A stretch of 34,523 nucleotides of DNA from a virus. The stretch is from the IMG/VR virus record IMGVR_UViG_3300045966_000100, positions 1-34,523 of that record, one strand, 5' to 3'. This document shows, piece by piece, positions 1 to 34,523 of the stretch (the first letter of the stretch is position 1; each line of letters starts with the position of its first letter). The translations under genes were made by a program, and so were the position numbers. The notes below the pieces were generated by a model. It did no database searches. It saw nothing but the letters and a program-made list of their open reading frames with translations, and was not told where the DNA came from.

Positions 1-127
1 ACGGGTCATGACGAAGGAGTTCGCGCGCGGCTCCTTCCGGGCGGACGACTCCCATCAGAAGGTCGTCAACCTGTCGGACTCGAACTGGGACCTCCGGCGG
101 CTCCGGGTCCATCAATGGAGCCGACCG
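1..127. repeat. Left copy of 127-bp terminal direct repeat
   Basis: Identical to 34397-34523. A coding frame continues unbroken across the join, so this is the overlap of a circular or circularly permuted sequence. The length of 127 equals a common assembler k-mer, which suggests an assembly overlap rather than a biological terminal repeat. Confidence 0.95.
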
Positions 128-1756
128 GCGGAGTCCGGGCGGGCGCGCGTCGTCGCGCTCGCGGCGTACATCCTGAACGGCTCGTCCTCGACGGTGACGA
201 ACGCGACGAAGCGGAACACGACGGTCATCGACGCCTCGACCTATGTCCCGAACACGAACCTCGTCACGATGGACGCGCGGGTGTACGACTCGACCGATCC
301 CTACGCCGTGATCGAGGAGTGCGCGCGGGCGGAGGGGAAGACCTTCTTCGTCTTCGTGGACGCGACGACCGGGAACATGATGCTCTTCTACGACCTGGGA
401 ACCTCGACGGCGATCGCCTCGACGGTCTCGATCACGGACGAGGACCCCGACGGCGAGACGACCTTCGCTCCGGCGGAGGACGGCTCTCCCGGAGCCGAGG
501 ACCCGACCGAACTCCTGAGCGGCGCGGGGATGGTCTACGGGGAACAGACGACGATCACGGAGGCTCGACCCGCGATCGCGTCGGCACACGATGTCGCCGA
601 GGACACGATCTACGACTCGGGCGCGGGGAGTGACGCGGCGACGCGACTCTCGAACTTCCTCGATGTCCGCGAGGAGGAGGAACTCCGCTACTCCTGCTCG
701 ATCGAGGTCCGCGACGATCAGGCCCATCTCATCCAGGCGGGCCAGACGATCTCCTTCCGGTGGGCGGCGGCGAACGCGCTCACGCCGACGATCCAGCGGA
801 TCGTCCGCTGCGCGCCGGAGAAGATCGAGCCGGACCGCTACCGGCTCCATCTCGAACTCTCCTTCCCTGAGAAGGTCCGGCCCAGGATTCAGAATCACGG
901 GCAGGGGACGGTCCTGATCCGTCCTCAGGTCGCGACCTACGAGAATGTCTCCTTCTCCACGGATCACGACAACTTCTACACGGACTCGAACAAGATCAGA
1001 GACGGAGATGTGTATTGGCTCAACTCTCCGGCTGACCTGAGGCAGGGCGCGGGGACCGAGTACGACATCTATGACTACGACGCGGACGCGGTCTGCGGCG
1101 CGACCGTTCAACTGCGGGACCCGAAGCAGACCTTCGCGGCGACGCTCCTCACCTTCACCTCCGTTACGGGGACGCCGGTCCGTGTGAAGTTGACCGTCGA
1201 GTGGGATCGAGAGGACCCTCCGCTCGGCCCTCGTCCTCAGGCGAAACAATGGATGCCGATCCTCGTCACTTGCCAGGAACTCACGGCGGGCGACCCGATC
1301 CCGATCGACCCGACGCTCTACGGCGGGATCGGGGTCCGGGTCCTGAATGAGACCGCCGATAGCGGGTCCTTCGACTTCCGCGCTCCGGTGGGCGGGAGCG
1401 GCTCGACCCGCTACATCTTCGTCGTCTTCCGTCCGTTGTGGGAACTCGCGTCGGACGCCGTCTGCGGGCATCCGGACGACTGGGGCGCGAGCGAGATCGG
1501 CGCGATCCAGGCGGGCGCGGCCCTCGAACAGATCGCCTCCGCCGGATGGGTGGAGGCGGCTCCGCTCGGAGCGCGTGACGGGCTGGAGACCGACTTCGAT
1601 CTCGCGGGGGATGTCCAGGAGATCGAGTGGGTCACGAAGAACGGGCTAGAGATGCCGGAGACCGAATGGGAGGTTGACACTTCCGGGGATGCGATCTCCT
1701 TCGTCACCGCTCCGAAGGCGAGCGATCTCGTGATCGTCCGCTACCGCGTCGCATGA
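2..1756 (+). CDS. Tail hub/baseplate-like protein, main part (gene starts at 34188)
   Basis: This is the C-terminal part of a 654-residue protein whose GTG start lies at 34188; the frame enters through the terminal repeat, so the ATG at 8 is internal. It lies straight after the tape measure gene, where siphoviruses encode the distal tail protein and tail hub. The N-terminal half, read with the 34188 segment, has the beta-rich look of hub proteins; the region around residues 430-650 may be a carbohydrate-binding-like extension. Position and size support the role; no catalytic motif was recognised. It ends ATGA-coupled to the next tail gene. Confidence 0.75.
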   Translation, partial: RVMTKEFARGSFRADDSHQKVVNLSDSNWDLRRLRVHQWSRPAESGRARVVALAAYILNGSSSTVTNATKRNTTVIDASTYVPNTNLVTMDARVYDSTDPYAVIEECARAEGKTFFVFVDATTGNMMLFYDLGTSTAIASTVSITDEDPDGETTFAPAEDGSPGAEDPTELLSGAGMVYGEQTTITEARPAIASAHDVAEDTIYDSGAGSDAATRLSNFLDVREEEELRYSCSIEVRDDQAHLIQAGQTISFRWAAANALTPTIQRIVRCAPEKIEPDRYRLHLELSFPEKVRPRIQNHGQGTVLIRPQVATYENVSFSTDHDNFYTDSNKIRDGDVYWLNSPADLRQGAGTEYDIYDYDADAVCGATVQLRDPKQTFAATLLTFTSVTGTPVRVKLTVEWDREDPPLGPRPQAKQWMPILVTCQELTAGDPIPIDPTLYGGIGVRVLNETADSGSFDFRAPVGGSGSTRYIFVVFRPLWELASDAVCGHPDDWGASEIGAIQAGAALEQIASAGWVEAAPLGARDGLETDFDLAGDVQEIEWVTKNGLEMPETEWEVDTSGDAISFVTAPKASDLVIVRYRVA

Positions 1757-2625
1757 GCGAACCTCAGGTCGATCTCTCCTATCAGGCGAAGATCGGAGAG
1801 GACTTCACCCTCCCGCAGATGGGCGGCGGGACCGGGCGCACCGACGGCGGCGCGCAGTTCGTCGTCGTCCCGGTCCAGAACGAATCCGGCGGAAGCCTCG
1901 CGATCGGGACCGTCGTCCGACGGGACAATGTGTACCCGACGGGTCCGGCGCTCCTGGTGACTCCTGTCACCGCTGCGACGCAGATTCCGGTCGGGGTCGT
2001 CGTCGGCGCGGCGATCGCCGACGGCTCTCCTGGGTACATCGCGGTCCACGGCTCCCCCGCTCTCGTCCTGACGGAGGGGACGGTCTCCGACGGAGATGTC
2101 CTCGTCGCGTCGGCTACCTCCGGGCGGGCGAAGACGGCGGCGGCGAACGCGCTCTCGGAGATCGGCTTCGCGATCGCGCTCAACGACGCGAGCGGGACCT
2201 CTCAGGTGTGGGCGACCCTCGTCGGTCCGTTCACGACCGGACTCTCGTACTCGATCTTCCCAGGGGAGGTCTCGCTCCTCGTCGGGAACGGGACGGATGT
2301 CATCACGACCGGGATCAAGGCGGACTTACGGTGGCCGTTCTCGGGGACGCTCACGCGCTGGACGCTCCTCGCGGACATCGCGGGCGCGATCGTCTTCGAC
2401 ATCTGGAAGGACACCTTCGCGAACTTCCCACCGACCGTCGCCGACACGATCACCGCGTCGGCGAAGCCGACCCTCACCGCGTCGGACGACGAGGCCGAGA
2501 GTACGACCCTCACGGGCTGGACGACCGCGTTCAATGAGGGCGACATCTTCCGCTTCAATGTGGACTCCGTGACGACGATCCGACGCGTCACACTCGGACT
2601 GAAGTACCTACGGACGGGGACCTGA
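1753..2625 (+). CDS. Minor tail protein, probable receptor-binding module
   Basis: This 290-residue protein starts at an ATG overlapping the previous stop (ATGA). The first 150 residues are rich in Gly, Val, Thr and Ala with alternating hydrophobic residues, as in beta-structured fibre shafts. The last 110 residues, from about W193, form a separate Thr/Asp/Phe-rich beta module resembling the C-terminal tip modules of phage tail proteins. It sits between the hub and a LamG-like tail protein, which suggests an adsorption role at the tail tip. This is inferred from position and composition, not from a catalytic motif. Confidence 0.6.
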   Translation: MSEPQVDLSYQAKIGEDFTLPQMGGGTGRTDGGAQFVVVPVQNESGGSLAIGTVVRRDNVYPTGPALLVTPVTAATQIPVGVVVGAAIADGSPGYIAVHGSPALVLTEGTVSDGDVLVASATSGRAKTAAANALSEIGFAIALNDASGTSQVWATLVGPFTTGLSYSIFPGEVSLLVGNGTDVITTGIKADLRWPFSGTLTRWTLLADIAGAIVFDIWKDTFANFPPTVADTITASAKPTLTASDDEAESTTLTGWTTAFNEGDIFRFNVDSVTTIRRVTLGLKYLRTGT

Positions 2626-2626
2626 G

Positions 2627-3700: not shown

Positions 3701-3703
3701 ACG

Positions 3704-3892: not shown

Positions 3893-3894
3893 GG

Positions 3895-4002: not shown

Positions 4003-4030
4003 CGAATCACCCCGTACCATAGGAGACGAG

Positions 4031-5238: not shown

Positions 5239-5282
5239 TGTGAAGACGCCGTCGGGCGCAGTCTCAGGCCTCCGGTCGGCTT

Positions 5283-5318: not shown

Positions 5319-5327
5319 TCCCACTCC

Positions 5328-7380: not shown

Positions 7381-7841
7381 TCTACTCGTGTCAGAAGTGC
7401 GGGAACCCGTCGCCCGATCCTCGGCTCCTTCAACACACGACCTCCGACGAGTACCGGACGGGGAAGTGTCTCTACTGTAAGCGGAAGCGCGTCTTCCGCC
7501 GGGTCGCGACCGAACCGGCGGGCGAACTCGACGCGGGCGAAGGACGGACCCGGGCCGAACGCGGCATGGCGCGAGCGGCGGCGTCGGAGGGACGCGCGTC
7601 GGACTGGAACCTCGCGGCGGACTCCGTGATCCGCGAACTCGCGGCGTCCGGCTCCGAGTTCACGAGCGAAGATGTGACCGCGCGCGTCGGCCTTCCGCTT
7701 CGGTCGCCCGGAGCGGTCGGCGCGCGCATGAACGCGGCCTCGAAGAAGGGCTGGATCGCGTGGACGGGGCGGATGTCCCAGGCCGAGAGGCCGAATCAAC
7801 ACGCGGCGGTCCTGAAAGTATGGAAGGGGATCGGGTGGTGA
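7377..7841 (+). CDS. Zinc-ribbon plus winged-helix-like protein
   Basis: This 154-residue protein has an N-terminal zinc ribbon (C5xxC8 and C31xxC34), a basic Ala/Arg linker, and a C-terminal region from about residue 78 (LAADSVIRELAASG) that reads like a winged helix: helix, FTSEDVTARVGLP turn, GAVGARMNAASKKGWI recognition part. The domain order suggests a DNA-binding regulator or replication accessory protein. It is one of three candidates in this genome for the factor binding the repeated operators. It overlaps the epimerase start by four bases. Confidence 0.65.
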   Translation: MIYSCQKCGNPSPDPRLLQHTTSDEYRTGKCLYCKRKRVFRRVATEPAGELDAGEGRTRAERGMARAAASEGRASDWNLAADSVIRELAASGSEFTSEDVTARVGLPLRSPGAVGARMNAASKKGWIAWTGRMSQAERPNQHAAVLKVWKGIGW

Positions 7842-8695
7842 AGGTTCTCGTCACGGGCGATAAGGGCTTCGTCGGGCGGCACACGGTCCCGGTCCTCCGG
7901 GCGGCGGGACACGAGGTCGAGGGCTTCGACGCGGCGGACGGTCTCGACCTCCGGGAGGGTCTCTTCGACGCGGCGGAGAGAGTCGATGTCGTCCTCCATC
8001 TCGCGGCGGTCGCGCAGTTCGCGGCGGCGGACGAGAACCCGATCCAGGCGCTCGAAGTGAACGCGCTCGGGACGAGGAATGTCGTCCGGGCGTGTGAGGC
8101 CTTCAGTCTCCCACTCGTCCACGCCTCGACCGGGTCGGTGTATATGCCGGTCCTCGATGTCCCGATCCGCGAGGATCATCGGCTCTCGGGGAACTCCGTC
8201 TACGGGGTCACGAAGCGGATCGCGGAGGCCTATGTCGAGGAGGCGAAGGTCCCGGCGGTGATCCTCCGCTACGCGCATCTCTACGGCCCGGGGAAGATCG
8301 GACACGGACTCGTCGGCGGGGTCCTGGGACGGATCGCGATCGGGGAGCCTCCGCTCGTCATGGGCGACGGGAACCAGACGAACGACTTCACCTACATCTC
8401 GGACATCGCGGCGGCGAACCTCGCGGCGGTCGAGCGGGTCTACCTCTACCCGGGCGTCCGGGCCTACAACATCGGGACGGGAGTCGAACTGTCGGCGATG
8501 GACGCGGCGCGCATCGTGGCGGAGCGCGCGGGCTGGACCGGGCCGATCGAACACGCTCCGCGTCGCGAAGTGGACGCGTCCCGGTTCGCGTTCGATGTGT
8601 CGGCGGCGGAGCGCGACCTCGGCTGGAAGGCGCTCGTCCCGTTCTGGAAGGGGATGGAGACGATGCTGAAGGAGATCGAGTGGGCCTCGAAGTAG
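7838..8695 (+). CDS. NAD-dependent sugar epimerase/dehydratase (extended SDR)
   Basis: This 285-residue protein should alter an NDP-linked sugar. It has the Rossmann motif GxxGxxG at residues 7-13, the loop HLAA near 54-57, the catalytic Y122xxxK126 with an upstream Ser/Thr at 97-98, and a conserved RYAHLYGPG substrate segment. GTG at 7838 overlaps the previous stop, with GGAAGGGG before it; a GTG three bases upstream is also possible. Length is slightly short for the family (usually 300-330). It heads a sugar cassette with an acyltransferase and an aminotransferase. The exact sugar cannot be read from sequence. Confidence 0.9.
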   Translation: MKVLVTGDKGFVGRHTVPVLRAAGHEVEGFDAADGLDLREGLFDAAERVDVVLHLAAVAQFAAADENPIQALEVNALGTRNVVRACEAFSLPLVHASTGSVYMPVLDVPIREDHRLSGNSVYGVTKRIAEAYVEEAKVPAVILRYAHLYGPGKIGHGLVGGVLGRIAIGEPPLVMGDGNQTNDFTYISDIAAANLAAVERVYLYPGVRAYNIGTGVELSAMDAARIVAERAGWTGPIEHAPRREVDASRFAFDVSAAERDLGWKALVPFWKGMETMLKEIEWASK

Positions 8696-9096
8696 GAGCC
8701 GGGACTCGGGTCTGGCATCCGGAACTCTCGATCCACGAAGACTCCCGGATCGGGGCGAACTGTACGATCCACGCGCCGACCTGGATCGTCGGGACCGTGA
8801 TCGGGGACCGATGTCGGGTCCAGGCCTTCTGCTACCTCCCACCGGGGACGATCCTGGAGGACGATGTCTTCCTCGGACCGGGCGTGACCTTCACGAACGA
8901 CGAGTACCCTCCGTCGCCGATCGAGGCGTGGCGCGGCGCGGTCGTCCGGAAGGGCGCGTCCCTGGGCGCGGGCGTCGTCGTCCTCCCGGGCGTGATCATC
9001 GGAGCCGGGGCGCGGATCGGCGCGGGCGCAGTCGTGACCCGCGATGTCCCTCCCGGCGAGACGCGGGTCGGCGTCCCGGCTCGGAGGCTCGCGTGA
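8680..9096 (+). CDS. Hexapeptide-repeat sugar N-acetyltransferase
   Basis: This 138-residue protein has a GTG start inside the epimerase end (16-bp overlap). Left-handed beta-helix repeats of the (I/V)GxxxxI type run through it, with the FTNDEYP segment typical of nucleotide-sugar acetyltransferases of the WlbB/FdtC/QdtC type. Those enzymes acetylate an amino sugar, so the neighbouring aminotransferase is a logical supplier. It is somewhat short, but the helix appears complete. Four-base GTGA overlap with the next gene. Confidence 0.85.
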   Translation: MGLEVGAGTRVWHPELSIHEDSRIGANCTIHAPTWIVGTVIGDRCRVQAFCYLPPGTILEDDVFLGPGVTFTNDEYPPSPIEAWRGAVVRKGASLGAGVVVLPGVIIGAGARIGAGAVVTRDVPPGETRVGVPARRLA

Positions 9097-9725
9097 CGAG
9101 TCGGGCCTTCCGGTCGGTCGAACTCCTGGAGGAGGCGCTCGCGGAGTACGGCGGGAGCCGACACGCCGTCGCCGTGGACTCGGGGACGAGCGCGATCTTC
9201 CTCTCCCTCCTCGTCTCGGACATCCGTCTCCAGCGGGTCCGCGTCCCGGCTCGGACCTACATCTCCGTCCCGTTCGCGGTGATCCGGGCGGGCGGTATCC
9301 CGGAGTTCGTGGACGAGGAGTGGACCGGACAATGGAGGCTCTCGCCGACGGCGGTCGTGGACTCCGCGCTCCGGCTGCGCCGGGGATGCCACGCACTCGG
9401 GACGATGACCTGTCTCTCCTTCCACGCGCGGAAGCGGCTCCCGGTCGGACGCGGCGGCGCGATCCTGCTCGACTCCGCGTACCTCGCGGAACGGCTCCGG
9501 CGGCTCCGCTTCGACGGGCGGACCGGCTCCGTCCCGTTCATGAAGGACCGCGTCGAGGAGGTCGGCTTCAACGCATACCTCACTCCGGATCAGGCGTCCC
9601 GGGCGCTTCAACTTCTGGAGGCCCTCCCGGACGACCCTCCGGACCTCACTCCGGAATACCCGGACCTTCGCGAGATGCCCGTCTTCAAGGAGGCGTCATG
9701 GACAGTCAGTCTTCCGGCGTACTAG
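9093..9725 (+). CDS. Very short DegT/DnrJ/EryC1-type aminotransferase
   Basis: Only 210 residues, against about 370-400 in the family, yet motifs appear in order: SGT at 30-32, TYISVPFAVIRAGGIPEFVD (55-74), SFHARK at 109-114 with K114 as likely PLP lysine, GRGG at 119-122, LRRLRFDGR near 135, and FNAYLTPDQA near 159-168. The intervals between motifs are compressed and the C-terminal domain is missing. PLP-dependent amination of a keto-sugar is the known family reaction. Either an active miniature or a degenerate relic; the GTGA junction and normal codon style argue for a maintained gene. Confidence 0.8.
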   Translation: MTSRAFRSVELLEEALAEYGGSRHAVAVDSGTSAIFLSLLVSDIRLQRVRVPARTYISVPFAVIRAGGIPEFVDEEWTGQWRLSPTAVVDSALRLRRGCHALGTMTCLSFHARKRLPVGRGGAILLDSAYLAERLRRLRFDGRTGSVPFMKDRVEEVGFNAYLTPDQASRALQLLEALPDDPPDLTPEYPDLREMPVFKEASWTVSLPAY

Positions 9726-11318: not shown

Positions 11319-11440
11319 CCGACGAGCCTCCCGTCTGGCGCGGCTGCGGCTGCGTCTTCCTGCTCGCGCTCGGATTCTGGATCGGCCTCGCGATATGGGC
11401 GGGGAACTGGATCGGCGAGTTCCTCCGGAGCGTGACTTGA
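11315..11440 (+). CDS. Tiny membrane protein
   Basis: A 41-residue protein whose ATG overlaps the previous stop (ATGA). Residues about 11-34 form one hydrophobic, Trp/Gly-rich span (GCVFLLALGFWIGLAIWAGN). It is the last gene of the early operon before a structured stretch and a terminator. Function unknown; superinfection exclusion is one possibility for such proteins, not shown here. Confidence 0.6.
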   Translation: MTDEPPVWRGCGCVFLLALGFWIGLAIWAGNWIGEFLRSVT

Positions 11441-11461
11441 CGCCGGGTGTAGGCTCCCTCC

Positions 11462-11551
11462 ATGAAGCGACGCGGGTCGTTGACCCTCTCTGTTATCATC
11501 TTCGCGCAACGACGCGGCGCTTCATCGTGTCTGCGGGTGGACCCCTTCTAG
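11462..11551 (+). other. Possible leaderless short ORF/leader peptide
   Basis: A 29-codon ORF (opening MKRRGSLTLS) starts six bases after TAGGCT (11450-11455), the same -10-to-ATG distance as the leaderless operons. No -35 box sits at the right distance, so this is weak. ATGAAGCG at 11462-11469 pairs with CGCTTCAT at 11518-11525, and GTCGTTG at 11476-11482 with CAACGAC at 11507-11513, so the region can fold. It could be a leader feeding the terminator that follows. Confidence 0.25.
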
Positions 11552-11580
11552 GACTTGTCCTGGGAGGGGTCTTCTCTTGC
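11540..11580 (+). terminator. Strong hairpin terminator with CTTCTCTT tail
   Basis: GACCCCTTCTAGGAC (11540-11554) pairs with GTCCTGGGAGGGGTC (11557-11571), 15 pairs including two G-U wobbles, around a minimal loop. It is followed by a pyrimidine/T-rich CTTCTCTT. This fits an intrinsic terminator ending the early operon. Confidence 0.7.
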
Positions 11581-11864
11581 CCGCCGCAGAACGCAGGAGG
11601 GGTCCGAGACGACGGTCTGCGGCTGCGCGGATCACTCCAGGGTATCGGCCTCAGGCCGACCGACACGCGTACCGGGCCGGAGTCCTTCGGGACTGGCGGG
11701 TCCTGGACGAGGAGCGTACAGACGGCACCCCGCTCCGTTCGAGTCCAGGTCTACACGACGCCGACGACTGCGATCTCGCACACGGCATCGACTCCGTCTC
11801 TCTTCGGAGGGCGGAGTCTGCCTCCCTGCTCCTTCGCTCCGGCATCGTAGGACGGACCCGATGA
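11577..11864 (+). CDS. Doubtful ORF in structured region
   Basis: A 95-codon frame from TTG, with GGGAGGGG seven bases upstream and an ATGA overlap with the next gene, which are the two arguments for it. Against it, third codon positions are mixed (many A and T), unlike the strong G/C third-position style of nearby genes, and the ribosome site lies inside the terminator stem. The C-terminal half (VLRDWRVLDEERTDG) looks somewhat protein-like. If it is not a gene, 11441-11860 is about 420 bp of mostly non-coding, structured sequence. Confidence 0.35.
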   Translation: MPAAERRRGPRRRSAAARITPGYRPQADRHAYRAGVLRDWRVLDEERTDGTPLRSSPGLHDADDCDLAHGIDSVSLRRAESASLLLRSGIVGRTR

Positions 11865-12769: not shown

Positions 12770-12976
12770 CTAGCGGAGGTCCCTCAGCGGCGGCGTCTCG
12801 CGCGTCCTGAGGTCCCGGAGTTCGGGGTCTCGACGGAAGAACTCCTCGCGCTCCCGCTCGTGGAGGATGGAGTGATCCTCCCTCAGCGTCGCGAGCGTCG
12901 TCAGATGCTCCCGGCCCTCCAGGTTCCGGACGCCGTGGAACTCGATCAGGTGGCGGACGAGTTCGGCCTTCTTCAC
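12770..12976 (-). CDS. Hypothetical protein, last gene of leftward operon D
   Basis: 68 residues from GTG (12976), overlapping the HTH gene's stop (GTGA). Helical and charged: an ELVRHLIEFHGV opening, a REDHSILHEREREEFFRRD helix and an Arg-rich end. The HLIEFHGV...LREDHSILHE pattern is similar to small actinophage proteins whose function is unknown to me. It ends in the convergent junction. Confidence 0.6.
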   Translation of the reverse strand: MKKAELVRHLIEFHGVRNLEGREHLTTLATLREDHSILHEREREEFFRRDPELRDLRTRETPPLRDLR

Positions 12977-13170
12977 GCGGCCTCCTCCGGCGCGTCCGTC
13001 ACGACGCGGCGATGCTGCGCGGCGTACCGCTCGACCTCGCGCTCCGTGACGGTCCAGGCCCATCCGATCTTCCGCGCGCGGAGCGAGCCGTTCCGAATCT
13101 GCCACCGGAGCGTCGAGGGCGACAGGCCCAGGCGCGCTCCGGCCTCCCTGAGGGTCATGTTCCTCTTCAT
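12973..13170 (-). CDS. HTH DNA-binding protein (excisionase/MerR-like)
   Basis: 65 residues. AAGGAG lies six bases before the ATG at 13170. TLREAGARLGLSPSTLRWQI (residues 6-25) is a clear helix-turn-helix, followed by the wing NGSLRARKIGWAWTV and a closing helix. It is the best candidate within the leftward array for a regulator of the shared promoter module, but nothing links it directly to the palindrome. It is the second such protein in the genome (the other is at 9698). Confidence 0.8.
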   Translation of the reverse strand: MKRNMTLREAGARLGLSPSTLRWQIRNGSLRARKIGWAWTVTEREVERYAAQHRRVVTDAPEEAA

Positions 13171-14210: not shown

Positions 14211-14283
14211 GAGAGGGACTCTACACGAGACCGTGTAGGTCTGTCAAGCGGTAGGCGCGCGAAGTGTTGCGCGCCGTCACCAC
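14211..14283 (-). promoter_or_regulatory. Promoter module D (leaderless, with two operators)
   Basis: Reading leftward: box GTGGTGACGGCGCGCAACA (14283-14265), 17 bp, TTGACA (14247-14242), an 18-bp spacer, TAGAGT (14223-14218), 7 bp, ATG at 14210. The spacer and -10 hold the palindrome TACACGAGACCGTGTA (14222-14237). A repressor there would block polymerase. Confidence 0.85.
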
Positions 14284-14286
14284 TTC

Positions 14287-16002: not shown

Positions 16003-16074
16003 GTGAGCATGGTACACGAGGTCGTGTAGGCCTGTCAAGTACCCTGGAGATGAATCGTTGCGCGGTGTCAACAC
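16003..16074 (-). promoter_or_regulatory. Promoter module C (leaderless, with two operators)
   Basis: Reading leftward: box GTGTTGACACCGCGCAACG (16074-16056), 17 bp, TTGACA (16038-16033), an 18-bp spacer, TACCAT (16014-16009), 6 bp, ATG at 16002. The perfect palindrome TACACGA-GG-TCGTGTA lies at 16013-16028. A second TTGACA inside the box looks incidental. Confidence 0.88.
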
Positions 16075-16078
16075 TTCG

Positions 16079-17257: not shown

Positions 17258-17328
17258 GTGAGAATCCTACCTGACCTCGTGTAGTCTGTCAAGCGGTAGC
17301 GGGGAGGATCGTTGCCTCCCCGCACCAC
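17258..17328 (-). promoter_or_regulatory. Promoter module B (leaderless, weaker operator)
   Basis: Reading leftward: box GTGGTGCGGGGAGGCAACG (17328-17310), 17 bp, TTGACA (17292-17287), a 17-bp spacer, TAGGAT (17269-17264), 6 bp, ATG at 17257. The palindrome at 17268-17283 is imperfect (TACCTGACCTCGTGTA), so binding may be weaker than at A and C. Confidence 0.8.
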
Positions 17329-17332
17329 ATCT

Positions 17333-18175: not shown

Positions 18176-18375
18176 CGGACGACCTCGACCTCGCGTGGGC
18201 TGAAGAAGCCCGCGCTCCGTGAGACGCGCTTCTGGTCGTCCCACTTGACCTCGACGAGACCGCCGAGTTCGCCTTCGGAGGCGACGATGCGGACGATCGT
18301 TCCGCGACGACCGGAGAAGTGAAGGCTCCGGACCTGGGCGCCGACCTGGAAGTCGGCGGGAAGGGAAGTGAACAT
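18172..18375 (-). CDS. Leaderless first gene of operon A, SH3-like barrel
   Basis: 67 residues. ATG 18375 is six bases after TATATT, so the frame further upstream is excluded. FQVGAQVRSLHFSGRRGTIV then GGLVEVKWDD and a closing VEVV follow the pattern of a small SH3/KOW-like barrel, and match the N-terminal domain of the gene at 16590. Probable nucleic-acid or protein adaptor; unproven. Confidence 0.7.
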   Translation of the reverse strand: MFTSLPADFQVGAQVRSLHFSGRRGTIVRIVASEGELGGLVEVKWDDQKRVSRSAGFFSPREVEVVR

Positions 18376-18446
18376 GAGAGGAATATACACGAGGTCGTGT
18401 AGCGTGTCAAGTACCCTGGACGAAGAATGTTGCCCGGAGTCACCAC
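18376..18446 (-). promoter_or_regulatory. Promoter module A (leaderless, with two operators)
   Basis: Reading leftward: box GTGGTGACTCCGGGCAACA (18446-18428), 17 bp, TTGACA (18410-18405), a 17-bp spacer, TATATT (18387-18382), 6 bp, ATG at 18375. The perfect palindrome TACACGA-GG-TCGTGTA is at 18386-18401. This has the best -10 of the five modules. Confidence 0.9.
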
Positions 18447-18469
18447 TTCTTCGCGGAGGCCGGATCGTC

Positions 18470-20087: not shown

Positions 20088-20460
20088 GCGGCATTGGACC
20101 TACAAGGGCGAGCGTCGTCGGCGGGCGGTCTTCCGCCGGGACAACTGGGAGTGTCAGGTCCGGGGTCCCGGCTGCGTCGGCGTCGCGACGGAGATCGACC
20201 ATCGCATCCCGCGCAGTCGCGGCGGGACGGAGGAGATGGGGAACCTCCGGGCCGCGTGTGGTCCGTGTAACCGGCGGAAGGGCGCGCTCCTTCTGCGCGG
20301 GGACGGACCCGATGGTCCGACTCGGACGAGGCCGTTCTTTAGCGAGGCGGCTCCCGCTGGAGAGGCCTTCCGAACAATCTCTCCCCAGGCTCGACGCCGT
20401 GAGTCGCGATGGGCGACGGCGGCGCGCGACTACACGCGGCGGAACCGTGGCGCTGACTGA
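20080..20460 (+). CDS. HNH endonuclease
   Basis: This 126-residue protein has the HNH signature: C25 and C32, E38-I-D40-H41, a following R-x-R-G-G-T loop, N55, and C60xxC63-N with RRKG. HNH genes next to the large terminase are typical of cos-type phages, where HNH assists end cutting (as for HK97 gp74). It overlaps the terminase by 14 bases. The C-terminal 50 residues are Arg-rich and probably bind DNA. Confidence 0.9.
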   Translation: MARRHWTYKGERRRRAVFRRDNWECQVRGPGCVGVATEIDHRIPRSRGGTEEMGNLRAACGPCNRRKGALLLRGDGPDGPTRTRPFFSEAAPAGEAFRTISPQARRRESRWATAARDYTRRNRGAD

Positions 20461-21829
20461 CGCGATCGCGCGACCGAAGCGCGGCGTCCAGGTCCCGCGC
20501 ATCGCTCCCCCGCGTCCCGCGCGGAGCCTGATCCGCGAGTTCCGGAAGGTCGCGACCGAAGCCGGGATCGTCCTCATGAAGTGGCAGGACACCGCCGCGA
20601 CTTACCTCTGCGCGCGCGGTCCGGCGGGCTGGATGTTCCGCGAGATCGCGGTCGTCGTCGCGCGGCAGAACGGGAAGACCGAACTCCTCGTCCCGCGCAT
20701 CCTCCTCGACCTGAGGGCGGGGAAGCGGGTCATCCACACGGCGCAGAACCGGACCCTCCCCCGGGAAGTCTTCCTCCGGGTGGCGTCCCTCCTGGACCTC
20801 GACGAGACGAAGTTCGTCCGCTACGCGAACGGCCAGGAGATGATCATGATGTCGAACGGCGGGTCCTACCGGATCGTCGCTCCTCAGCGGGGCGCGCGCG
20901 GACTGACCGGCGATACCCTGATCTTCGACGAACTGCGCGAGTTCGAGGACTACGACATCGTCGGCGCAGCGGGTCCGACGCTGACGGCGTCGCCGGACCC
21001 TCAGGTCATCTACCTGTCGAACGCGGGCTACGACTCGTCGGTCGTCCTGAACGATCTCCGGCGGCGGGGCGAGACCGGCGGCGACGGGGACCTCTGCTAC
21101 CTGGAGTGGAGCGCGGACCCGGACCGTCCGGCCCAGGACCGGCGCGGGTGGGCGGAGGCGAACCCGGCGCTCGGGACGATCATCTCCTGGGACTTCCTGG
21201 AGCATCAGTACCGGACCCGGCCTCCGGCGATCTTCGAGACGGAGCATCTCTGCCGATGGACCGCGTCATCGAACCCGACGCTCGTCTCGATCGGCGCATG
21301 GGCCTCGTGTCAGACGAAGATCACGGAGGACCCGGTCCGTCCCTCGATGGCCTTCAACATGGACCCGTCCGGGAAGCGCGCGTCGGCGGCGATGTCCTGG
21401 ACGATGACCGACGGTCGGGTCGCGCTCGTCGAACTGGAGGAGGCGACGGGGGACCCGATCGCGGTCGAACTGCTCGGCGCGCGGCTGAAGGAACTCGCCC
21501 GGACGCATCGCGCGCGGCGCGTCGCCTTCGCGTCCTGGACCGATAAGGACCTCGCGCGCTATGTCCCCCGGGCCGAGGCGCTCGACGGGAAGGACTTCGC
21601 GAACGCGTCCGAGAACTTCGCGCGGCTCGTGGCGCAGGGTCGGCTCGCATGGGAGTCGGCGGACCACATCTCCGAGGACCTCGCGTGGACGGCGCGGAAG
21701 CCTCACGAGTCGGGCGCATGGCAAGCCGTCCCAGTCAATCAGGAGCGGGCGGTGACATCCGTCCTCGCGGCGATCCGCGCGGTATGGTTAGCGTCGGCTC
21801 CTCGACCTCCCGTTCCGAGGATAGGTTAG
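20447..21829 (+). CDS. terL: Large terminase subunit
   Basis: This 460-residue GTG-start protein is the packaging motor. The N-terminal ATPase has a Walker A variant VVARQNGKTE (70-79) and Walker B LIFDE (158-162), with an R-rich MWQ-like entry segment before it. The C-terminal half carries the RuvC-like nuclease, with Asp in NMDPSG (about 304) and later acidic residues. Length is at the short end of the Terminase_1 family. It lies between HNH and portal, the standard order. Confidence 0.93.
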   Translation: MALTDAIARPKRGVQVPRIAPPRPARSLIREFRKVATEAGIVLMKWQDTAATYLCARGPAGWMFREIAVVVARQNGKTELLVPRILLDLRAGKRVIHTAQNRTLPREVFLRVASLLDLDETKFVRYANGQEMIMMSNGGSYRIVAPQRGARGLTGDTLIFDELREFEDYDIVGAAGPTLTASPDPQVIYLSNAGYDSSVVLNDLRRRGETGGDGDLCYLEWSADPDRPAQDRRGWAEANPALGTIISWDFLEHQYRTRPPAIFETEHLCRWTASSNPTLVSIGAWASCQTKITEDPVRPSMAFNMDPSGKRASAAMSWTMTDGRVALVELEEATGDPIAVELLGARLKELARTHRARRVAFASWTDKDLARYVPRAEALDGKDFANASENFARLVAQGRLAWESADHISEDLAWTARKPHESGAWQAVPVNQERAVTSVLAAIRAVWLASAPRPPVPRIG

Positions 21830-21831: not shown

Positions 21832-23181
21832 ATGGGACTTCTCTCGCAACTGGCCGAACTGTTCATCCCTCCTCCGGCAGAGGAGCAGATGCGCGTCGTC
21901 AACTCCGAGGACTTCATCCTCGCGAACGAAGCGAGCGCGATCGACGATAACTACCTGAACTTCGTCGCGATGCTCACGGCGCGACGGAACGGCGGGTCGT
22001 ACCGCGTCCCGTCGGTGGACGAGGCGCTCGGCGTCCCGGCGGTGTGGGCGGCGACGACCCTCATCGCGAACACGGTCGGCTCGCTCTCGATGGAGGCCTA
22101 CCGGAGCGGCGTCCTCCTGGAGCCGAAGGAGACGCCGAGGCTGATCCAGAGGCCGAACCCGTTCACGACTCCGCGCGAGTTCTACCGGGACACGGCCTAC
22201 TACCTCGCGACGCGCGGGGAGGCGTGGTGGTGGATACCGACCCGGGACACGGACGGCTCGGCGCTCGCGCTGTACCCGATCCCTCCCTGGGAAATCAGCG
22301 TCGAACCGAACGGTCGGAACCGGCTCCGTCCGACGATCAAGTGGGGGAAGGAGACCGTCGCGAACGAGGACCTCCGACATCTGACGATGATCCGGGGGAA
22401 GGACGGGCGCGGGGTCGGCCCGCTCCAGAAGTGCGGCTCGGCAGTCTCCGTCACGGTCGAGGCGCAGGACTGGGCGGCGAACTTCTTCTCGGGGAACCTC
22501 CCGTCGATCATCGGGACGACCGATCAGGACCTCGACGAGGGGGAACTGAAACTGCTCGACAAACAATGGGCGGAGAAGGCCGGGAACCTCCCGCGCTGGA
22601 TGACTCAGGGGATGAAGATCGCGCCGTCGCCGATCTCGCCCGAGACGGCGCAACTGACGGAGGCGCGGAACCATCAGATCGGGGAAGCGGCTCGGATGTT
22701 CTCGATGCCCGGGGCGCTCCTGGAGTTCCAGATGGGCGGCTCGTCGATCACCTACCAGAACCAGCAGGACATCTGGTCCGACTTCCAGCGGCGGTGTCTC
22801 TCGCCGAACTACCTGGAGCCGATCGAGCAGGAGATGACCGACCTCCTCGTCCGCTCGACGACCGCGCGCTTCAACCTGAAGCAACTGCTCCGGGCCGACG
22901 CGAAGACACGCTTCGAGGTCCACAAACTCGCGATCGAGGCGGACATCTACGACTCGGAGACGGCGGCTCGCGAGGAGGGCTACGCTCCGGGATCGGTGGA
23001 CTTCGCTCCCGTTCCGTTCGCGGTCCCTCAGGCGGTCCCGGCGCTGATCCCGACGATGACCCGCTCGGAGGCTCCGCTCCAGGACCTCCGGTGTCCGAAG
23101 TGCGGGTGGCTCGCGGGCCGCGTCGCAGGGCGGGCGGAGATCAAGTGTCGGCGCTGCGGGAAGATCGTCGAGGCGGCATGA
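21832..23181 (+). CDS. Portal protein with C-terminal Com-like zinc ribbon
   Basis: 449 residues. Residues about 30-400 match the HK97-type portal: a VDEALGVPAVWAATTLIANT helix, RLIQRPNPFTTPREF, GEAWWWIPTRD, LHMI/LTMIRGKDGRGVGPLQ-like and MFSMPGALLEFQM segments. The last 29 residues form an unrelated zinc ribbon with C421xxC424 and C439xxC442 (AEIKCRRCGK), like the Mu Com protein that controls mom translation. Such a fusion is unusual. The ring would display twelve ribbons. The role of the ribbon is unknown. Confidence 0.9.
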   Translation: MGLLSQLAELFIPPPAEEQMRVVNSEDFILANEASAIDDNYLNFVAMLTARRNGGSYRVPSVDEALGVPAVWAATTLIANTVGSLSMEAYRSGVLLEPKETPRLIQRPNPFTTPREFYRDTAYYLATRGEAWWWIPTRDTDGSALALYPIPPWEISVEPNGRNRLRPTIKWGKETVANEDLRHLTMIRGKDGRGVGPLQKCGSAVSVTVEAQDWAANFFSGNLPSIIGTTDQDLDEGELKLLDKQWAEKAGNLPRWMTQGMKIAPSPISPETAQLTEARNHQIGEAARMFSMPGALLEFQMGGSSITYQNQQDIWSDFQRRCLSPNYLEPIEQEMTDLLVRSTTARFNLKQLLRADAKTRFEVHKLAIEADIYDSETAAREEGYAPGSVDFAPVPFAVPQAVPALIPTMTRSEAPLQDLRCPKCGWLAGRVAGRAEIKCRRCGKIVEAA

Positions 23182-23962: not shown

Positions 23963-25747
23963 GTGGCAATCGGAGCGGGCGCGGCTGGCGCATGGGCGGC
24001 AGTCAACGCGACGACGCAGACGGTCACCCTGCCGACACACGCGGCGGGCGATCTCCTCCTGCTCATCGCGGCGTGTAAGGCGTCCACGATCGACTCTGCC
24101 GATCCGACGATCACGACTCCGGCGACGGGCTGGACGAGGATCGGGACCTTCGCGGACGGGTCGGTCAACGCGGGGAACGGCCTCGGCTCCGTCCGACAGG
24201 CGATCTTCTACAAGATCGCGACCTCGTCTTCTGAGACGAACCCGGTCGTCACATGGGGCGGGAGTCAGACGGCGGCACCGGGGATCGCGGTCGCGCAGTC
24301 GTTCACGAAGGGCGGCGGGGAAGTCTGGAAGATACCCGTCGCGGTCCAGGCGGCGACGAACAACGCGACCTCGATCTCGGTCACGATGGGATCGAACCCG
24401 GGGATCATCGCGGGGGACTGGGGCGTCATCTTCCACACGACCCGGGATGACTCCGCGCTGACCGTCCCGTCCTGGACGGCGACGGGGACGACGCTCGCAG
24501 CGGTCGTCGAGTACCCGGGGACCGCGATCGCGACCGGGACCTCGAACGATATGGCGGGCGACTCGGGCTACCGATCGGTCACATCCGGGACGGCGTCTGC
24601 GGCTCCGGTCGTGACCGGGACGCAGGGCGCAGCGGAGACCGGCGTGACGGCCTTCGTCCGGCTCCGGGTGGAGACGGCGGCTCCGCAGACGGCGACCCCG
24701 TCCACGGTCTCCCTCACGATCACGACTCACGCGCCGACGGTGTCGGTCCCGAACAATGTCACGGTCACTCCGGCGACGGCGAGTCTCACGATCTCGACGC
24801 ACATCCCGACGGTGTCCGCTCCGAGGCTCGTCACTCCGGCGACGGTCGCGCTGACGATCTCCGGCCTCGCGCCGACCGTCTCGACTCCGAGGCTCGCGAC
24901 TCCCTCCACGGCTTCGCTCGTCGTCACGACTCACGCGCCGACCGTCTCGACCTCGGCGAACCAGACGGTCACTCCTGGAACCGCTTCGCTCATGGTGACG
25001 GGCTTCGCTCCGACCGTCACGGCCTCGGCTCACCAGACGGTCACGCCGGGGACGGCCTCTCTCGCGGTGACGGGCTTCGCGCCGACGGTCACGGCGTCCG
25101 ACCATAAGACCGTCGTCCCGACGACACGGGACCTCACGGTCTCAGGCCACGCTCCGACCGTCACGGCCTCGAACAACCAGACGGTCGTCCCGGGGACGGC
25201 GGCGCTCACGATCACGACACACGCTCCGAGCGTCGGGCAACCAGTCCAGGTCACGCCGGACACGCGGGCGCTCACGGTCACGACTCACGCGCCGACGGTG
25301 ACGGCGACGGCGCATCAGACCGTCACGCCGGGGACCGTGGCGCTCGTCCTCCAGGGCTTCGCGCCGACCGTCACGACTCCGAGGCTCGTCACCCCGACGA
25401 CGCGGGCGCTCGTCCTGACGACCTTCGAGCCGACGGTGACGATCGGCGCTGGAGGGACGGAGGTCGTCCCGGGGACGGCGGCGCTCGTCCTGACGACCTT
25501 CGCTCCGACCGTCGGACTCGGCCCGCTCGTCGTGACTCCTGGGACCCGGGCGCTCGTCCTCACGCGCTACGCGCCGACGGTCTCCGTCTCGGCGGAGGGG
25601 ATGTTCGGCTCGATCGGACCCTTCGACCCGACACACGGCGGCGTCGGCCCGAGCGGTCCCGGGATGGGCGGCGGGATCGGTCCTCATCAGCATACGGTCG
25701 GCGAACTCTCCCAGTCGGGGATCATCCGAGGCGAGATCGAAGGCTGA
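23963..25747 (+). CDS. Fibre-like virion protein with 13 tandem repeats
   Basis: 594 residues. Residues about 1-235 are a beta-rich head (VTLPTHAAGDLLLLIAAC, WTRIGTFADGS) typical of phage fibre-associated domains. Residues 243-546 hold 13 repeats of about 23 residues with core TP.T..L.(I/V/L)TT.APTV. A Gly-rich tail containing HQHTVGEL closes the protein. Repeats 5 and 6 are the most alike. It probably extends from the virion to contact the host, and repeat number could change by recombination. No enzyme motif seen. Confidence 0.75.
   Translation: MAIGAGAAGAWAAVNATTQTVTLPTHAAGDLLLLIAACKASTIDSADPTITTPATGWTRIGTFADGSVNAGNGLGSVRQAIFYKIATSSSETNPVVTWGGSQTAAPGIAVAQSFTKGGGEVWKIPVAVQAATNNATSISVTMGSNPGIIAGDWGVIFHTTRDDSALTVPSWTATGTTLAAVVEYPGTAIATGTSNDMAGDSGYRSVTSGTASAAPVVTGTQGAAETGVTAFVRLRVETAAPQTATPSTVSLTITTHAPTVSVPNNVTVTPATASLTISTHIPTVSAPRLVTPATVALTISGLAPTVSTPRLATPSTASLVVTTHAPTVSTSANQTVTPGTASLMVTGFAPTVTASAHQTVTPGTASLAVTGFAPTVTASDHKTVVPTTRDLTVSGHAPTVTASNNQTVVPGTAALTITTHAPSVGQPVQVTPDTRALTVTTHAPTVTATAHQTVTPGTVALVLQGFAPTVTTPRLVTPTTRALVLTTFEPTVTIGAGGTEVVPGTAALVLTTFAPTVGLGPLVVTPGTRALVLTRYAPTVSVSAEGMFGSIGPFDPTHGGVGPSGPGMGGGIGPHQHTVGELSQSGIIRGEIEG
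24689..25600 (+). repeat. About 70-bp coding repeats, 13 copies
   Basis: Thirteen units of 22-24 codons run in frame, with a conserved TP.T...L...APTV core and variable ends. Identity is higher in the protein than in the DNA, apart from neighbouring units 5 and 6, so most of the array is old. Confidence 0.8.
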
Positions 25748-27381: not shown

Positions 27382-29094
27382 ATGGCAGACGAAGAGACAG
27401 TCGATCTCGAACCGCGAGAGACTGACGCGGTCGAGGCAGAGGTCCAGGTTCGCGACGCGGCTCTCCGCGAGGTCGAGTTCCGGATCATGCCGTGGAACAC
27501 TCCCGTCAATACGGTCTTCGGGCCGGAGGAGTTCGACCGTGGAGCCTTCGCCGAAGTCGATCCGAAGAAGGTCCTTCTCATGGGACCGGAACACGAGGCC
27601 CACTTCGGCGTCGGCCAGGACGGGAAGCCTCGTCTCACTCGGCGTCCGATCGGGCGGGGGAAGTGGCTGGAGGAGCGCGACGACGGGGCCTACATGGGCT
27701 TCCGAGTGGCGGCGACTCAGGCCGGGGACGAGTACCTCGTCCTCGCTCAGGAAGGGGTCATCGACTCGGCCTCGGTCGAGTTCGTGGAGCGTCTAGGCGG
27801 GACTCGCTTCACGATGAAGAACGGGAGGCGGCACAAGGTCCACGCGCGGGTCGATCTCCCGGCAGTCTCGCCCACATACCGACCGGCCTATCCAGGCGCG
27901 GCGGTGATCGCAGTCCGCTCGGCGGAGGAGGAAGAGGAACCGATGGCAACCACAACGAAGGGTCTCCAGGAGGACCCGGCTCCTGAGCCGACTCCTCCCG
28001 ACGAGCCTCAGGAGCCGGAGAAGGTTCCGGAGGGCGTCCAGGCCCGCTCGATCCAGGGCTACTTCGACCGCATGGACGCGAGCCTCGCGGACTTCGCGGA
28101 CAAGTTCGTCTCCCGGCTGGAGTCCGTCGAGGAGCGGACCCGGTCCCAGTTCGTCGTACCTGGGATCGAGGACGCCGGACCCGAAGTCTCGATCGGCGAG
28201 TGGACGAAACTCGTCTTCTCTCTGCTCTCCGGGGATCGCATCCCTGAGGCGCAGATGCGGACCGTCGCGGACCTGATCACGCCGGACAACGCGGGCGTCG
28301 TCCCGGAGGCCTTCATCTCGGAACTGCGCGGCGTCATCGACCCGAGCCGTCCCTTCATGGAGTCCACGCGGAAACTGCCGACGCCGACCTCCGGGACCTC
28401 GATGCGAGTCCCGAAGATCACGCAGCGTCCGACCGTCGCGGAGCAGGACCCCGAGAAGGAAGAACTCTCGTCTCAGAAGACGATCATCACTTCCGACACC
28501 TTCGAGATGAAGACGAAGGGCGGAGTCGGGGACCTGTCGCTTCAACTCCTGAAGCGGTCCGACCCGTCGTTCCTCGACCTGTATGTCCGGCTTCTGGCCG
28601 AGGCCTACGCGATCGAGACCGACGACGAGGCGGTCCACGAACTGATCGACGCGGTCGGTTCGGTCGGAGCGGCGAACCCGATGGACCCGGAGAACCTCGC
28701 GCTCGGCGCGTCGTTCCAGACTTCGTTCGACGCGATCCGTCGGCCTCCGGACACGATCTGGCTCTCGACCGAAGCGGTCGGCGAGTTCATCGACGCGAAG
28801 GCGACCGGCACGAACGCGCCACTCTACCCGGGCCTTCAGGCCTCGGCGACGGCGGCGGGTGGGATCACGGGGACGATCTCCGGACTCCGGCCCGTTCATG
28901 TTCCGGCGCTCGACGCTCACGGGGCCTACGCGATCGTCGGACCGTCGTCCGGCTTCGCATGGGCGGAGGACGGGACCTACACCCTCCAGGTCGATGTCCC
29001 GGCCCGCGCGGGTCGCGATGTCTCGATCGTCGGGATGGTGTGGTTCGTTCCCTGGTATCCCGACGCGTTCTCTCTCTACAATGTGGCCTCCTAA
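27382..29094 (+). CDS. Prohead protease-major capsid protein fusion
   Basis: 570 residues. The N-terminal part (about 25-180) is an HK97-type S78 protease with H71/H74 in PEHEAHFG and a Ser in DSASVEF (129-131). Residues 180-270 are a Pro/Glu-rich and coiled linker that could act as scaffold (delta) domain. The rest follows the HK97 capsid fold: PEAFISELRGVIDPSRPFME, VPKITQRP, TFEMKTKGG, and closing W/Y-rich beta strands. Fused protease-capsid genes are known in some phages; self-release would be needed. An internal ATG at 27943 after GGAGGAGGAAGAGG could give separate capsid of 383 residues. Confidence 0.9.
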   Translation: MADEETVDLEPRETDAVEAEVQVRDAALREVEFRIMPWNTPVNTVFGPEEFDRGAFAEVDPKKVLLMGPEHEAHFGVGQDGKPRLTRRPIGRGKWLEERDDGAYMGFRVAATQAGDEYLVLAQEGVIDSASVEFVERLGGTRFTMKNGRRHKVHARVDLPAVSPTYRPAYPGAAVIAVRSAEEEEEPMATTTKGLQEDPAPEPTPPDEPQEPEKVPEGVQARSIQGYFDRMDASLADFADKFVSRLESVEERTRSQFVVPGIEDAGPEVSIGEWTKLVFSLLSGDRIPEAQMRTVADLITPDNAGVVPEAFISELRGVIDPSRPFMESTRKLPTPTSGTSMRVPKITQRPTVAEQDPEKEELSSQKTIITSDTFEMKTKGGVGDLSLQLLKRSDPSFLDLYVRLLAEAYAIETDDEAVHELIDAVGSVGAANPMDPENLALGASFQTSFDAIRRPPDTIWLSTEAVGEFIDAKATGTNAPLYPGLQASATAAGGITGTISGLRPVHVPALDAHGAYAIVGPSSGFAWAEDGTYTLQVDVPARAGRDVSIVGMVWFVPWYPDAFSLYNVAS

Positions 29095-30383: not shown

Positions 30384-30446
30384 TCGGCAGTCACACTTCG
30401 GGTCCAGCCTCGGACGGTAGAGGTTCTCAGCGTAAGGAGTGGAACG

Positions 30447-32038: not shown

Positions 32039-32175
32039 TCGCCCGGTGGCGGCTTCAACTGATCGCGGAAGTAGAGGTCGGGACGGCATCCCGAAACCGG
32101 AACCGGCAGGAGGATGCCCAGGTGTCCCGACTGAAGGCGGCGACGAAGCGGAGGAGGGCTAGTGGCGCTCTCTGA
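31511..32175 (+). CDS. Tail assembly chaperone, -1 frameshift product
   Basis: A -1 slip at CCCTTTA (31879-31885) continues in a frame that looks real (EEVLAHFADGKIDISALGWY, ISALGWYAYSEDPEAVLA, DFYYPDGRHRDDFI) to a stop at 32173-32175, giving about 221 residues. Bridging G and GT proteins this way is standard for siphovirus tails. The extended protein binds the tape measure; the tape measure start lies inside its end. Confidence 0.8.
31879..31885 (+). other. Slippery heptamer CCCTTTA for -1 frameshift
   Basis: In the zero frame C-CCT-TTA, so both tRNAs can re-pair on CCC-TTT. The zero frame becomes low-complexity just after, and the -1 frame begins a plausible protein. Confidence 0.85.
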
Positions 32176-34183
32176 TACCGCGCGGCTGATCTCCGAGATG
32201 GTCCTCGTCGATAAGTTCTCGGCGAACGCGCGGAAGTACGGCCAGTCCGTCTCGACGATGGAGCGTCAGACATCGACGCTCGGGCGCGTCGGACAGACGG
32301 CGGCGGGCGGCATCGGGACCGCAGTCGGGAACCTCGCGAAGATGGGAGTCATCGGGGTCGGCATCCTCGGGACTCAGGTCGCAGCGGGCATCCGGTCCCT
32401 AGAGCGGCTCGAAGAGGTCGTCGTCGCGACGAACGAAGTCATCCGCTCGACGAGCGGCGTCGCGGGTCAGTCGGCGGAGGACATCCGGAACCTCGCGGAG
32501 AAGTACGAGGGACTGAACGCGACGATCGACGACAAGGTGATCCAGTCGGCGGAGAACCTCCTCCTCACCTTCACGAACATCCGGGGACAGGCCTTTGAAC
32601 CCGCGCTCGAAGCGGCGCTGAACATGAACCAGGCGCTCGGCGGCGGGGAGGAGGGACTCCAGGGGAACTTGATCAAGGTCGCGCGGGCGCTGAACGATCC
32701 GATCGCCGGTCTCTCGGCGCTCGGGCGGGCGGGCGTCCAGTTCTCCGACGAGCAGAAGGATCGGATTCAGCAAGCCGTCGAGGAGAACCGGCTGTACGAC
32801 GCGCAGCAGATCATCCTCGATCAACTGGCGACGAAGTTCGGCGGGCAGTTCGCCCAGGCCGGAACGACGGCGACGGCGAAGTTCGCGAAGTTCCGGGACA
32901 CGATCGAGGACGCGCAGATGACCCTCGCGACCGCGTTCCTCCCGGTCCTCGTCAAGGTCGCCGACAAGTTGGGCGAGTTCCTCGCGAAGCCTGAGACGCA
33001 GACGATGATCGCGGAACTCGGGGAGGGACTGGCCGACGCGTTCGATCAGGTCGTCGAACTCGCGGGGCGGGTCCCGTGGAGTTCTGTCATCGACGCCTTC
33101 AAGATCATGGGGACCGGCTCGAAGGCCCTACTCGACGCGTTCGTCGCGCTCCCTCCCTGGGTCCAGACGGCGGTCATCACGGGATGGGGCCTGAACAAAC
33201 TCACGGGCGGCGCGCTCTCGACGATCTTCTCGACCCTCGCGTCGGGGATCATCCGGGGCGTTCTCGGGATCAACGCGGGCGTCGTCAACCTGAAGGCGGC
33301 GACGGTCGTCGGCGGCGGCGCGGCGGGTGGCGCTCCGATCGCAGCGGCGGGCGGCGGGGTCGGCGGCGTGATCACGAAGATACTCGGCGTCGTCTCGGCG
33401 GGCGCGCTCGGCGCGCTGATCGGCTCGGAGATCGGACACGCGGTCTTCTTCGACCCGACGGTGAAACCGGCGGTCGAGTTCGAGCAGTCGCAGTTCGACC
33501 GGCTCGTCGCGTCCCAGGACCCGGAGAAGATCAGGACCGGACTCCGGGCGATCGAGGACGGGCTAGGAGACCTCGACGCGCTCGGCCCGCTGAAGATTCT
33601 CGCCGGAGATCAGTACGACATCCTCGTCTCGCAGCGGGACACCCTCCGCTCGATCCTGGAAGACCTGGGCCAACCGACGGCACCGACGGCTCCTCTCCCG
33701 AGTCCCATCAATCAGGGCGGGACGCAACCAGTCCCGGTCGCGATTCCGGCTCCGTCGTCGCGGGACCTTCAGCAGTCGCGGCAGTTCCTCGCGAACATCG
33801 AGACCGCGACGGGGTCGAACACTTCGACCTCCCGCGATGTTCTCGCGACGAACCGGCGGACGCTCGGGCTGACAGACGCGCAACTGGGACAGGACCGGCG
33901 GTCGTCGGCGATGCGGTCGTCCGAGTCGATCCGTGGATTCTTCGCCCAGGAGCGGACGACCGGGGCGACGAAGACGGCGGCGCTCATGGCGAAGGGCGAC
34001 GCGATCCGGGACTTCTTCACGCAGATCGGACAGACGGGACTCCTCCGGATCATCGCGTCGAAGAACTTCTCGCCGACGATCATCGTGAAGACGACGACGA
34101 ACACGAGCATCTCCGGGAAGACGGTCCAGTCCACGATCACGCAGTCGCAACTCCAGGTCGGCACCGGGCCGCAGGAGTTCTAG
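32162..34183 (+). CDS. Tape measure protein
   Basis: 673 residues from GTG. Helical throughout the first part (LVDKFSANARKYGQSVSTME), hydrophobic membrane-like stretches around residues 45-85 and 340-430 (Gly/Ala/Val-rich, GAAGGAPIAAAGGGVG), and a helical end. At about 1.5 angstrom per residue it would set a tail of about 100 nm. The Ala/Gly region may insert into the host membrane for DNA entry. Start overlaps the end of the frameshifted chaperone. Confidence 0.9.
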   Translation: MALSDTARLISEMVLVDKFSANARKYGQSVSTMERQTSTLGRVGQTAAGGIGTAVGNLAKMGVIGVGILGTQVAAGIRSLERLEEVVVATNEVIRSTSGVAGQSAEDIRNLAEKYEGLNATIDDKVIQSAENLLLTFTNIRGQAFEPALEAALNMNQALGGGEEGLQGNLIKVARALNDPIAGLSALGRAGVQFSDEQKDRIQQAVEENRLYDAQQIILDQLATKFGGQFAQAGTTATAKFAKFRDTIEDAQMTLATAFLPVLVKVADKLGEFLAKPETQTMIAELGEGLADAFDQVVELAGRVPWSSVIDAFKIMGTGSKALLDAFVALPPWVQTAVITGWGLNKLTGGALSTIFSTLASGIIRGVLGINAGVVNLKAATVVGGGAAGGAPIAAAGGGVGGVITKILGVVSAGALGALIGSEIGHAVFFDPTVKPAVEFEQSQFDRLVASQDPEKIRTGLRAIEDGLGDLDALGPLKILAGDQYDILVSQRDTLRSILEDLGQPTAPTAPLPSPINQGGTQPVPVAIPAPSSRDLQQSRQFLANIETATGSNTSTSRDVLATNRRTLGLTDAQLGQDRRSSAMRSSESIRGFFAQERTTGATKTAALMAKGDAIRDFFTQIGQTGLLRIIASKNFSPTIIVKTTTNTSISGKTVQSTITQSQLQVGTGPQEF

Positions 34184-34187
34184 GAGC

Positions 34188-34523
34188 GTGACTCAGGTCA
34201 TCACGATCGACGGGGTCAATCGCGCGAGTGTCATCCGCTACCCGGGGTCCACTTTCGACTCGGGCGCGTGGAACGGGGAGGCGGGGACGGGGTCCCTCCT
34301 CCTGGAGGACGAGGCGGCGGCTCTCGACTTCCCAGGGCTGAAGATCGTCCGGATGACCGAGGACGCGTCCGGCTCGACGAAGCATCTCTACCGGGGACGG
34401 GTCATGACGAAGGAGTTCGCGCGCGGCTCCTTCCGGGCGGACGACTCCCATCAGAAGGTCGTCAACCTGTCGGACTCGAACTGGGACCTCCGGCGGCTCC
34501 GGGTCCATCAATGGAGCCGACCG
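34188..34523 (+). CDS. Tail hub/baseplate-like protein, N-terminal part (continues at 2)
   Basis: A GTG start at 34188, four bases after the tape measure stop with TAGGAG in front. The 72 codons up to the ATG at 34404 are in frame and continue through the terminal repeat into 2-1756. They open TQVITIDGVNRASVIRYPGS and include GSLLLEDEAAALDFPGLKIV, the usual first domain of siphovirus hub proteins. The complete protein has 654 residues. Confidence 0.8.
   Translation, partial: MTQVITIDGVNRASVIRYPGSTFDSGAWNGEAGTGSLLLEDEAAALDFPGLKIVRMTEDASGSTKHLYRGRVMTKEFARGSFRADDSHQKVVNLSDSNWDLRRLRVHQWSRP
34397..34523. repeat. Right copy of 127-bp terminal direct repeat
   Basis: Exact copy of 1-127. Removing it leaves a 34,396-bp circle in which the tail gene reads through without interruption. 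Confidence 0.95.

Follow-up and report, generated by a model that had tools for sequence, protein, structure and literature searches.

The window, by which we mean the whole 34,523-bp virus record that was analyzed, has lost nearly every copy of about 22 Type II-like recognition specificities. A fixed list of 22 sites is expected to occur about 746 times (the sum of order-2 Markov expectations, with CTYRAG replacing CTCGAG and with small overlaps among the sites), and a single copy was observed. The absence is all or none for each site. Very probably, this is passive evasion, in which selection has removed about 22 Type II recognition sites met by the lineage and left one copy.

The earlier note had claimed a total absence of the tetramers ACGT, AGCT, and TGCA, and a count of all 4-mers against a maximal-order Markov model bore this out. 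Each tetramer occurs 0 times in the whole record, versus expectations of 136.3, 49.4, and 12.6, respectively, and a synonymous-codon shuffle that kept the proteins fixed expected 104.8, 65.8, and 25.6 copies. TCGA, GATC, CCGG, and GCGC are as common as had been stated (383/391, 412/419, 484/419, and 425/394 observed/expected). The context-dependent codon switches that the note described were exact wherever we counted them in the called proteins. Before GTN, Asp is GAT (33 of 33), Tyr is TAT (9 of 9), Asn is AAT (9 of 9), and His is CAT (6 of 6), and before CTN, Glu is GAA (40 of 40), Lys is AAA (7 of 7), and Gln is CAA (15 of 15). Thr preceding a T-starting codon is never ACG (0 of 96), and Cys preceding an A-starting codon is always TGT (7 of 7). 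The dipeptides Met-His and Met-Gln, which force TGCA and were said to be unseen, were indeed not found (0 observed versus 6.1 expected; 47 versus 60 in relatives), and no start codon in the window is directly followed by CA. Noncoding DNA obeys as well, with 1 site versus 97 expected in 4.8 kb (21 of the 22 fixed-list sites), so the absence is not a codon-usage effect. The note's guess that composition accounts for the missing AATT and TTAA held in that the maximal-order expectations are only 1.1 and 0.6, so that no special cause is needed; AATT is less settled, as the codon shuffle expects 11.

These three tetramers are a minority among the absent sites. Also missing are RGATCY, GRGCYC, CCGCGG, GTCGAC, CGGCCG, CTYRAG, GCCGGC, CASTG, CCWWGG, ATCGAT, ACCGGT, TTCGAA, CGTACG, RCATGY, WGTACW, AGCGCT, CTRYAG, and the spaced BglI site GCCN5GGC. 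Absent words with an expectation of at least 7 comprised 3 four-mers, 2 five-mers, 19 six-mers, and 2 seven-mers, where Poisson statistics predict well under one altogether. When elimination was defined as an observed/expected ratio of <0.1 for recognized Type II sites, 29 of the 88 REBASE palindromic specificities with an expectation of at least 10 were eliminated. Removal of overlaps left 22 independent specificities, 20 of them at zero: ACGT, RGATCY, GDGCHC, CCGCGG, AGCT, GTCGAC, CGGCCG, CTYRAG, GGCGCC, CASTG, GCCGGC, CCWWGG, CGTACG, ATCGAT, ACCGGT, TGCA, RCATGY, TTCGAA, GGTACC, WGTACW, AGCGCT, and CTRYAG. The sole surviving forbidden site in a pattern scan is a GGCGCC at positions 18337 to 18342, where 29 copies were expected; the fragment of a sister phage, described below, has none. 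Of the earlier attribution to several host 4-base systems, the restriction pressure is strongly supported, but the scope was too narrow: about 22 specificities are involved, and most are 6-base sites.

Words of other kinds are depleted too. The asymmetric words CCAAG, CACAG, CCCAGC, and ACCTGC are absent (0/31, 0/30, 0/14, and 0/10 observed/expected), and the non-palindromic CCAA/TTGG is sixfold depleted in the window (9/58) and at 0.94 of expectation in relatives, in which CCAA and the four absent words are near normal (ratios of 0.80 to 1.06). The spaced words AGGN4CCT (0/16) and GGCNGCC (0/19) are missing from the window and normal in relatives (0.96 and 1.15), while GCCNGGC (0/15) is partly depleted in relatives as well (0.60). 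These asymmetric and spaced words may be further specificities. CAGCGA was rejected as a forbidden site, as the sister has 5 copies.

Avoidance is strongly biased toward palindromes: of the 23 palindromic hexamers whose expectation reached 7, 13 were eliminated, versus 10 of 958 non-palindromic classes (Fisher p = 1e-17), and several of those ten classes are members of degenerate palindromic sites. A structural aversion to short perfect palindromes, acting through hairpins, cruciforms, or a structure-specific nuclease, would fit the loss of all four NTCGAN and all four NGTACN palindromes, but we consider it very improbable. Ten palindromic hexamers (CGATCG, TCGCGA, TCCGGA, CCCGGG, ACGCGT, GCGCGC, CGCGCG, AGGCCT, TGATCA, and TCATGA) are kept at or near normal frequency (71/80, 73/51, and 41/47 observed/expected for the first three), which indicates a list of sites rather than general palindrome avoidance. 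Moreover, non-self-complementary members of degenerate sites are gone: AGATCC (RGATCY) was lost together with AGATCT and GGATCC, GAGCCC (GRGCYC) with GGGCCC, and AGTACA (WGTACW) with AGTACT, and CTACAG (CTRYAG) is also absent. The loss of GCCN5GGC (0/17.5 observed/expected) is spacer specific, with GCCN2GGC, GCCN3GGC, and GCCN4GGC at 22/17, 16/17, and 14/17. The presence of ACCGGC, AGCGCC, and ATCGAA led us to reject single degenerate enzymes recognizing RCCGGY, RGCGCY, or WTCGAW; ACCGGT, GCCGGC, AGCGCT, GGCGCC, ATCGAT, and TTCGAA therefore behave as separate specificities. As for base composition, dinucleotide bias, or codon bias, the 67% G+C of the window explains AATT and TTAA, but as a cause of the absences at large we give such biases a probability close to nil. 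Both the Markov model and the codon shuffle predict counts that are far from zero, and nineteen relatives of similar G+C carry ACGT, AGCT, and GTCGAC at 1173/1178, 996/936, and 233/280 observed/expected. These figures refute composition as the cause for ACGT and AGCT and for most of the hexamers; for TGCA, the argument rests on 13 to 26 expected copies.

The window has one sister in IMG/VR, IMGVR_UViG_3300045952_000104, a 20.3-kb fragment whose terminase is 97% and whose head protein is 95% identical, with DNA identity of 82 to 96% over the longer aligned blocks. The sister has zero copies of every fixed-list site; its forbidden list is the same, and it added no new class of absent site. The 1,492 substitutions that separate the two created 0 forbidden sites, whereas random placement at equivalent positions predicts 220 new sites with the base matched, or 237 ± 18 with the codon phase matched at nearby positions. 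These results show that the site absence has been maintained by ongoing selection since the window and its sister split.

The avoidance is specific to this lineage and is not common to the nineteen relatives of similar G+C. Broader IMG/VR relatives have terminases 44 to 68% identical to that of the window, and those tabulated in the REBASE specificity test eliminated 0 to 5 specificities each. One relative (L089), recovered from the metagenome that also yielded the sister, showed no such avoidance, and the nearest relative after the sister (G002/L081), which has a related terminase and a similar G+C content, eliminated no specificities. G002 has as its own feature a Dam-like methyltransferase; the complete window genome gave no match to the methyltransferase families PF02086, PF01555, PF00145, and PF05869, a sequence search that covered four families, and other base modifications may exist. 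At most, this contrast is suggestive: the families are also missing from the majority of the other relatives, most of which are fragments. Four distant relatives with 45 to 49% G+C (L003, L014, L015, and L017) eliminated different sets, of 10 to 12 independent sites each in 11 to 14 kb (for example, GGCC, CCNGG, and ACGT in L015, GGNCC and GTAC in L014, and CCGG in L003).

A 127-bp terminal repeat makes the record a circle of 34,396 bp, and the recognized genes suggest a tailed phage with a siphovirus-like layout. On the plus strand are the terminase large subunit (20447 to 21829; phrog_9, E = 2.8e-47), which served as the query for finding the sister and the non-avoiding relatives, the portal protein (21832 to 23181; phrog_12, E = 5.5e-51), a major head protein with a protease-like N-terminal part (27382 to 29094; phrog_2263, E = 1.9e-48, and phrog_80), and a tail tape-measure protein (32162 to 34183; phrog_27166, E = 6.2e-20). 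A RecB-like exonuclease and an M23 peptidase were also recognized among the window proteins. We found no tRNA genes or Rfam families in the window, no integrase among the proteins scanned, no defense genes among the eight window proteins scanned, and no known relative in viral contigs for the protein encoded at 18503 to 19720. An excisionase-like HTH protein is encoded at 12973 to 13170 on the minus strand, so the signs of a non-temperate lifestyle are mixed. Three adjacent sugar genes at 7820 to 9725 encode an NAD-dependent epimerase/dehydratase, a hexapeptide transferase, and a DegT-type aminotransferase, and a 594-amino-acid protein at 23963 to 25747 has few acidic residues and many repeats of the HAPTVS or GFAPTV type. 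In the minus-strand gene block, an intergenic element of about 48 nucleotides occurs in four copies (14239 to 14286, 16030 to 16077, 17284 to 17331, and 18402 to 18449), and in each a minus-strand hexamer resembling TTGACA adjoins an imperfect inverted repeat like CTACACG-N4-CGTGTAG, an arrangement suggestive of a promoter plus operator in repeated form. The largest gap between called genes (11440 to 11860) obeys the site absence like other noncoding stretches. Within it, noncoding positions 11545 to 11860 fold somewhat better than shuffles (z = -2.2) and have no tRNA or Rfam match.

Megablast of the first 24 kb against phage isolate and plasmid records found no relative. In searches for a host, cellular genome contigs gave no match to the terminase, and the epimerase matched plasmids at only about 34% identity, in mixed phyla. 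The closest terminases and capsids among isolates belong to actinobacteriophages, with about 30% identity. These matches hint at an actinobacterial host without establishing one, and WhiB, sought in 46 relatives, was found in none.

Restriction-site elimination is an established viral strategy, and the window is an extreme instance of it. A published study found sites eliminated completely or almost completely in roughly one viral genome in ten; the sites concerned were nearly always of the orthodox Type II kind, and non-temperate phages showed the effect more often (Rusinov et al. 2018, PMC6286503). The double-stranded DNA phages of that study likewise eliminate orthodox palindromic sites, and the window differs in combining about 22 specificities in one small genome, including three 4-base sites, several degenerate sites, and some asymmetric words. 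The study pairs sites with host enzymes, whereas the window's sites stand unpaired. When 79 sequences no shorter than 10 kb were compared, a set in which several controls cover only part of a genome and in which many short fragments allow fewer sites to be tested, the window ranked first by independent eliminated specificities (22), ahead of Escherichia phage T7 (19), the sister (18), Giles (10), P23-45 (10), phiC31 (8), and KHP30 (4), with a median of 3. T7 (NC_001604) has 10 of its 19 at zero, compared with 20 of 22 in the window, and its main eliminated sites are different (GATC, 6/141; CCWGG, 2/83). T7 carries Ocr by annotation, and no relationship between T7 and the window is implied. In breadth T7 comes close to the window, which is set apart by how complete the loss is and by how many 4-base and degenerate sites have gone at once.

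The restriction pressure proposed earlier is strongly supported by the all-or-none absence, the palindrome bias, the lost members of degenerate sites, the spacer dependence of GCCN5GGC, and the sister. Against this reading, CCAAG, CACAG, CCCAGC, and ACCTGC are asymmetric, a kind of site that phages rarely avoid (PMC6286503). Judged from the genome, the cause is very probably cutting by Type II restriction endonucleases. Such enzymes, distributed among the strains of a host population or concentrated in one host with an unusual wealth of them, would select continuously. Any surviving site would carry a chance of being cut, so that mutations that create sites would be lost, and the sites would have been removed chiefly through synonymous codon choice. 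A nuclease encoded by the phage itself or by a satellite, cutting these sites in host DNA and forcing the phage to avoid its own cutter, could be sought among the several window genes of no known function, but it is extremely improbable: more than 20 different specificities would be required, and the only nucleases recognized in the window are the RecB-like exonuclease and the terminase.

It is possible, though rather unlikely, that each cell of a single host species, to which the phage is specialized, contains some 20 Type II systems or more. The absence of the same list from both sisters and the completeness of the loss suggest constant exposure. However, T7 hosts are not known to carry more than a few restriction systems each, and T7 nearly eliminated 19 specificities, 10 of them to zero, which favors a population-wide repertoire; KHP30 eliminated only 4 sites, although its host is known for many restriction-modification systems. 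Breadth alone is no proof of a large arsenal in one cell. Because T7 is nearly as broad, circulation through many strains is the more likely source of a breadth of more than 20 sites than one exceptionally armed host.

Removal of sites under restriction pressure would show the reach of passive escape in a small double-stranded DNA phage, with some 750 expected sites brought down to a single copy and with codon choice, and perhaps dipeptides such as Met-His and Met-Gln, bent to fit site avoidance. A bolder and doubtful extension is that the missing sites can be read as a fingerprint of the restriction systems in a host population that is rich in G+C and armed with a very wide range of Type II enzymes, some absent asymmetric and spaced words (CCAAG, CACAG, AGGN4CCT, and GGCNGCC) pointing to enzymes or defenses outside the REBASE copy used or to classes that phages are not known to avoid. 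The finding may thereby offer a way to read host restriction specificities from a virus genome, and the two sister genomes provide material for measuring the strength of selection.
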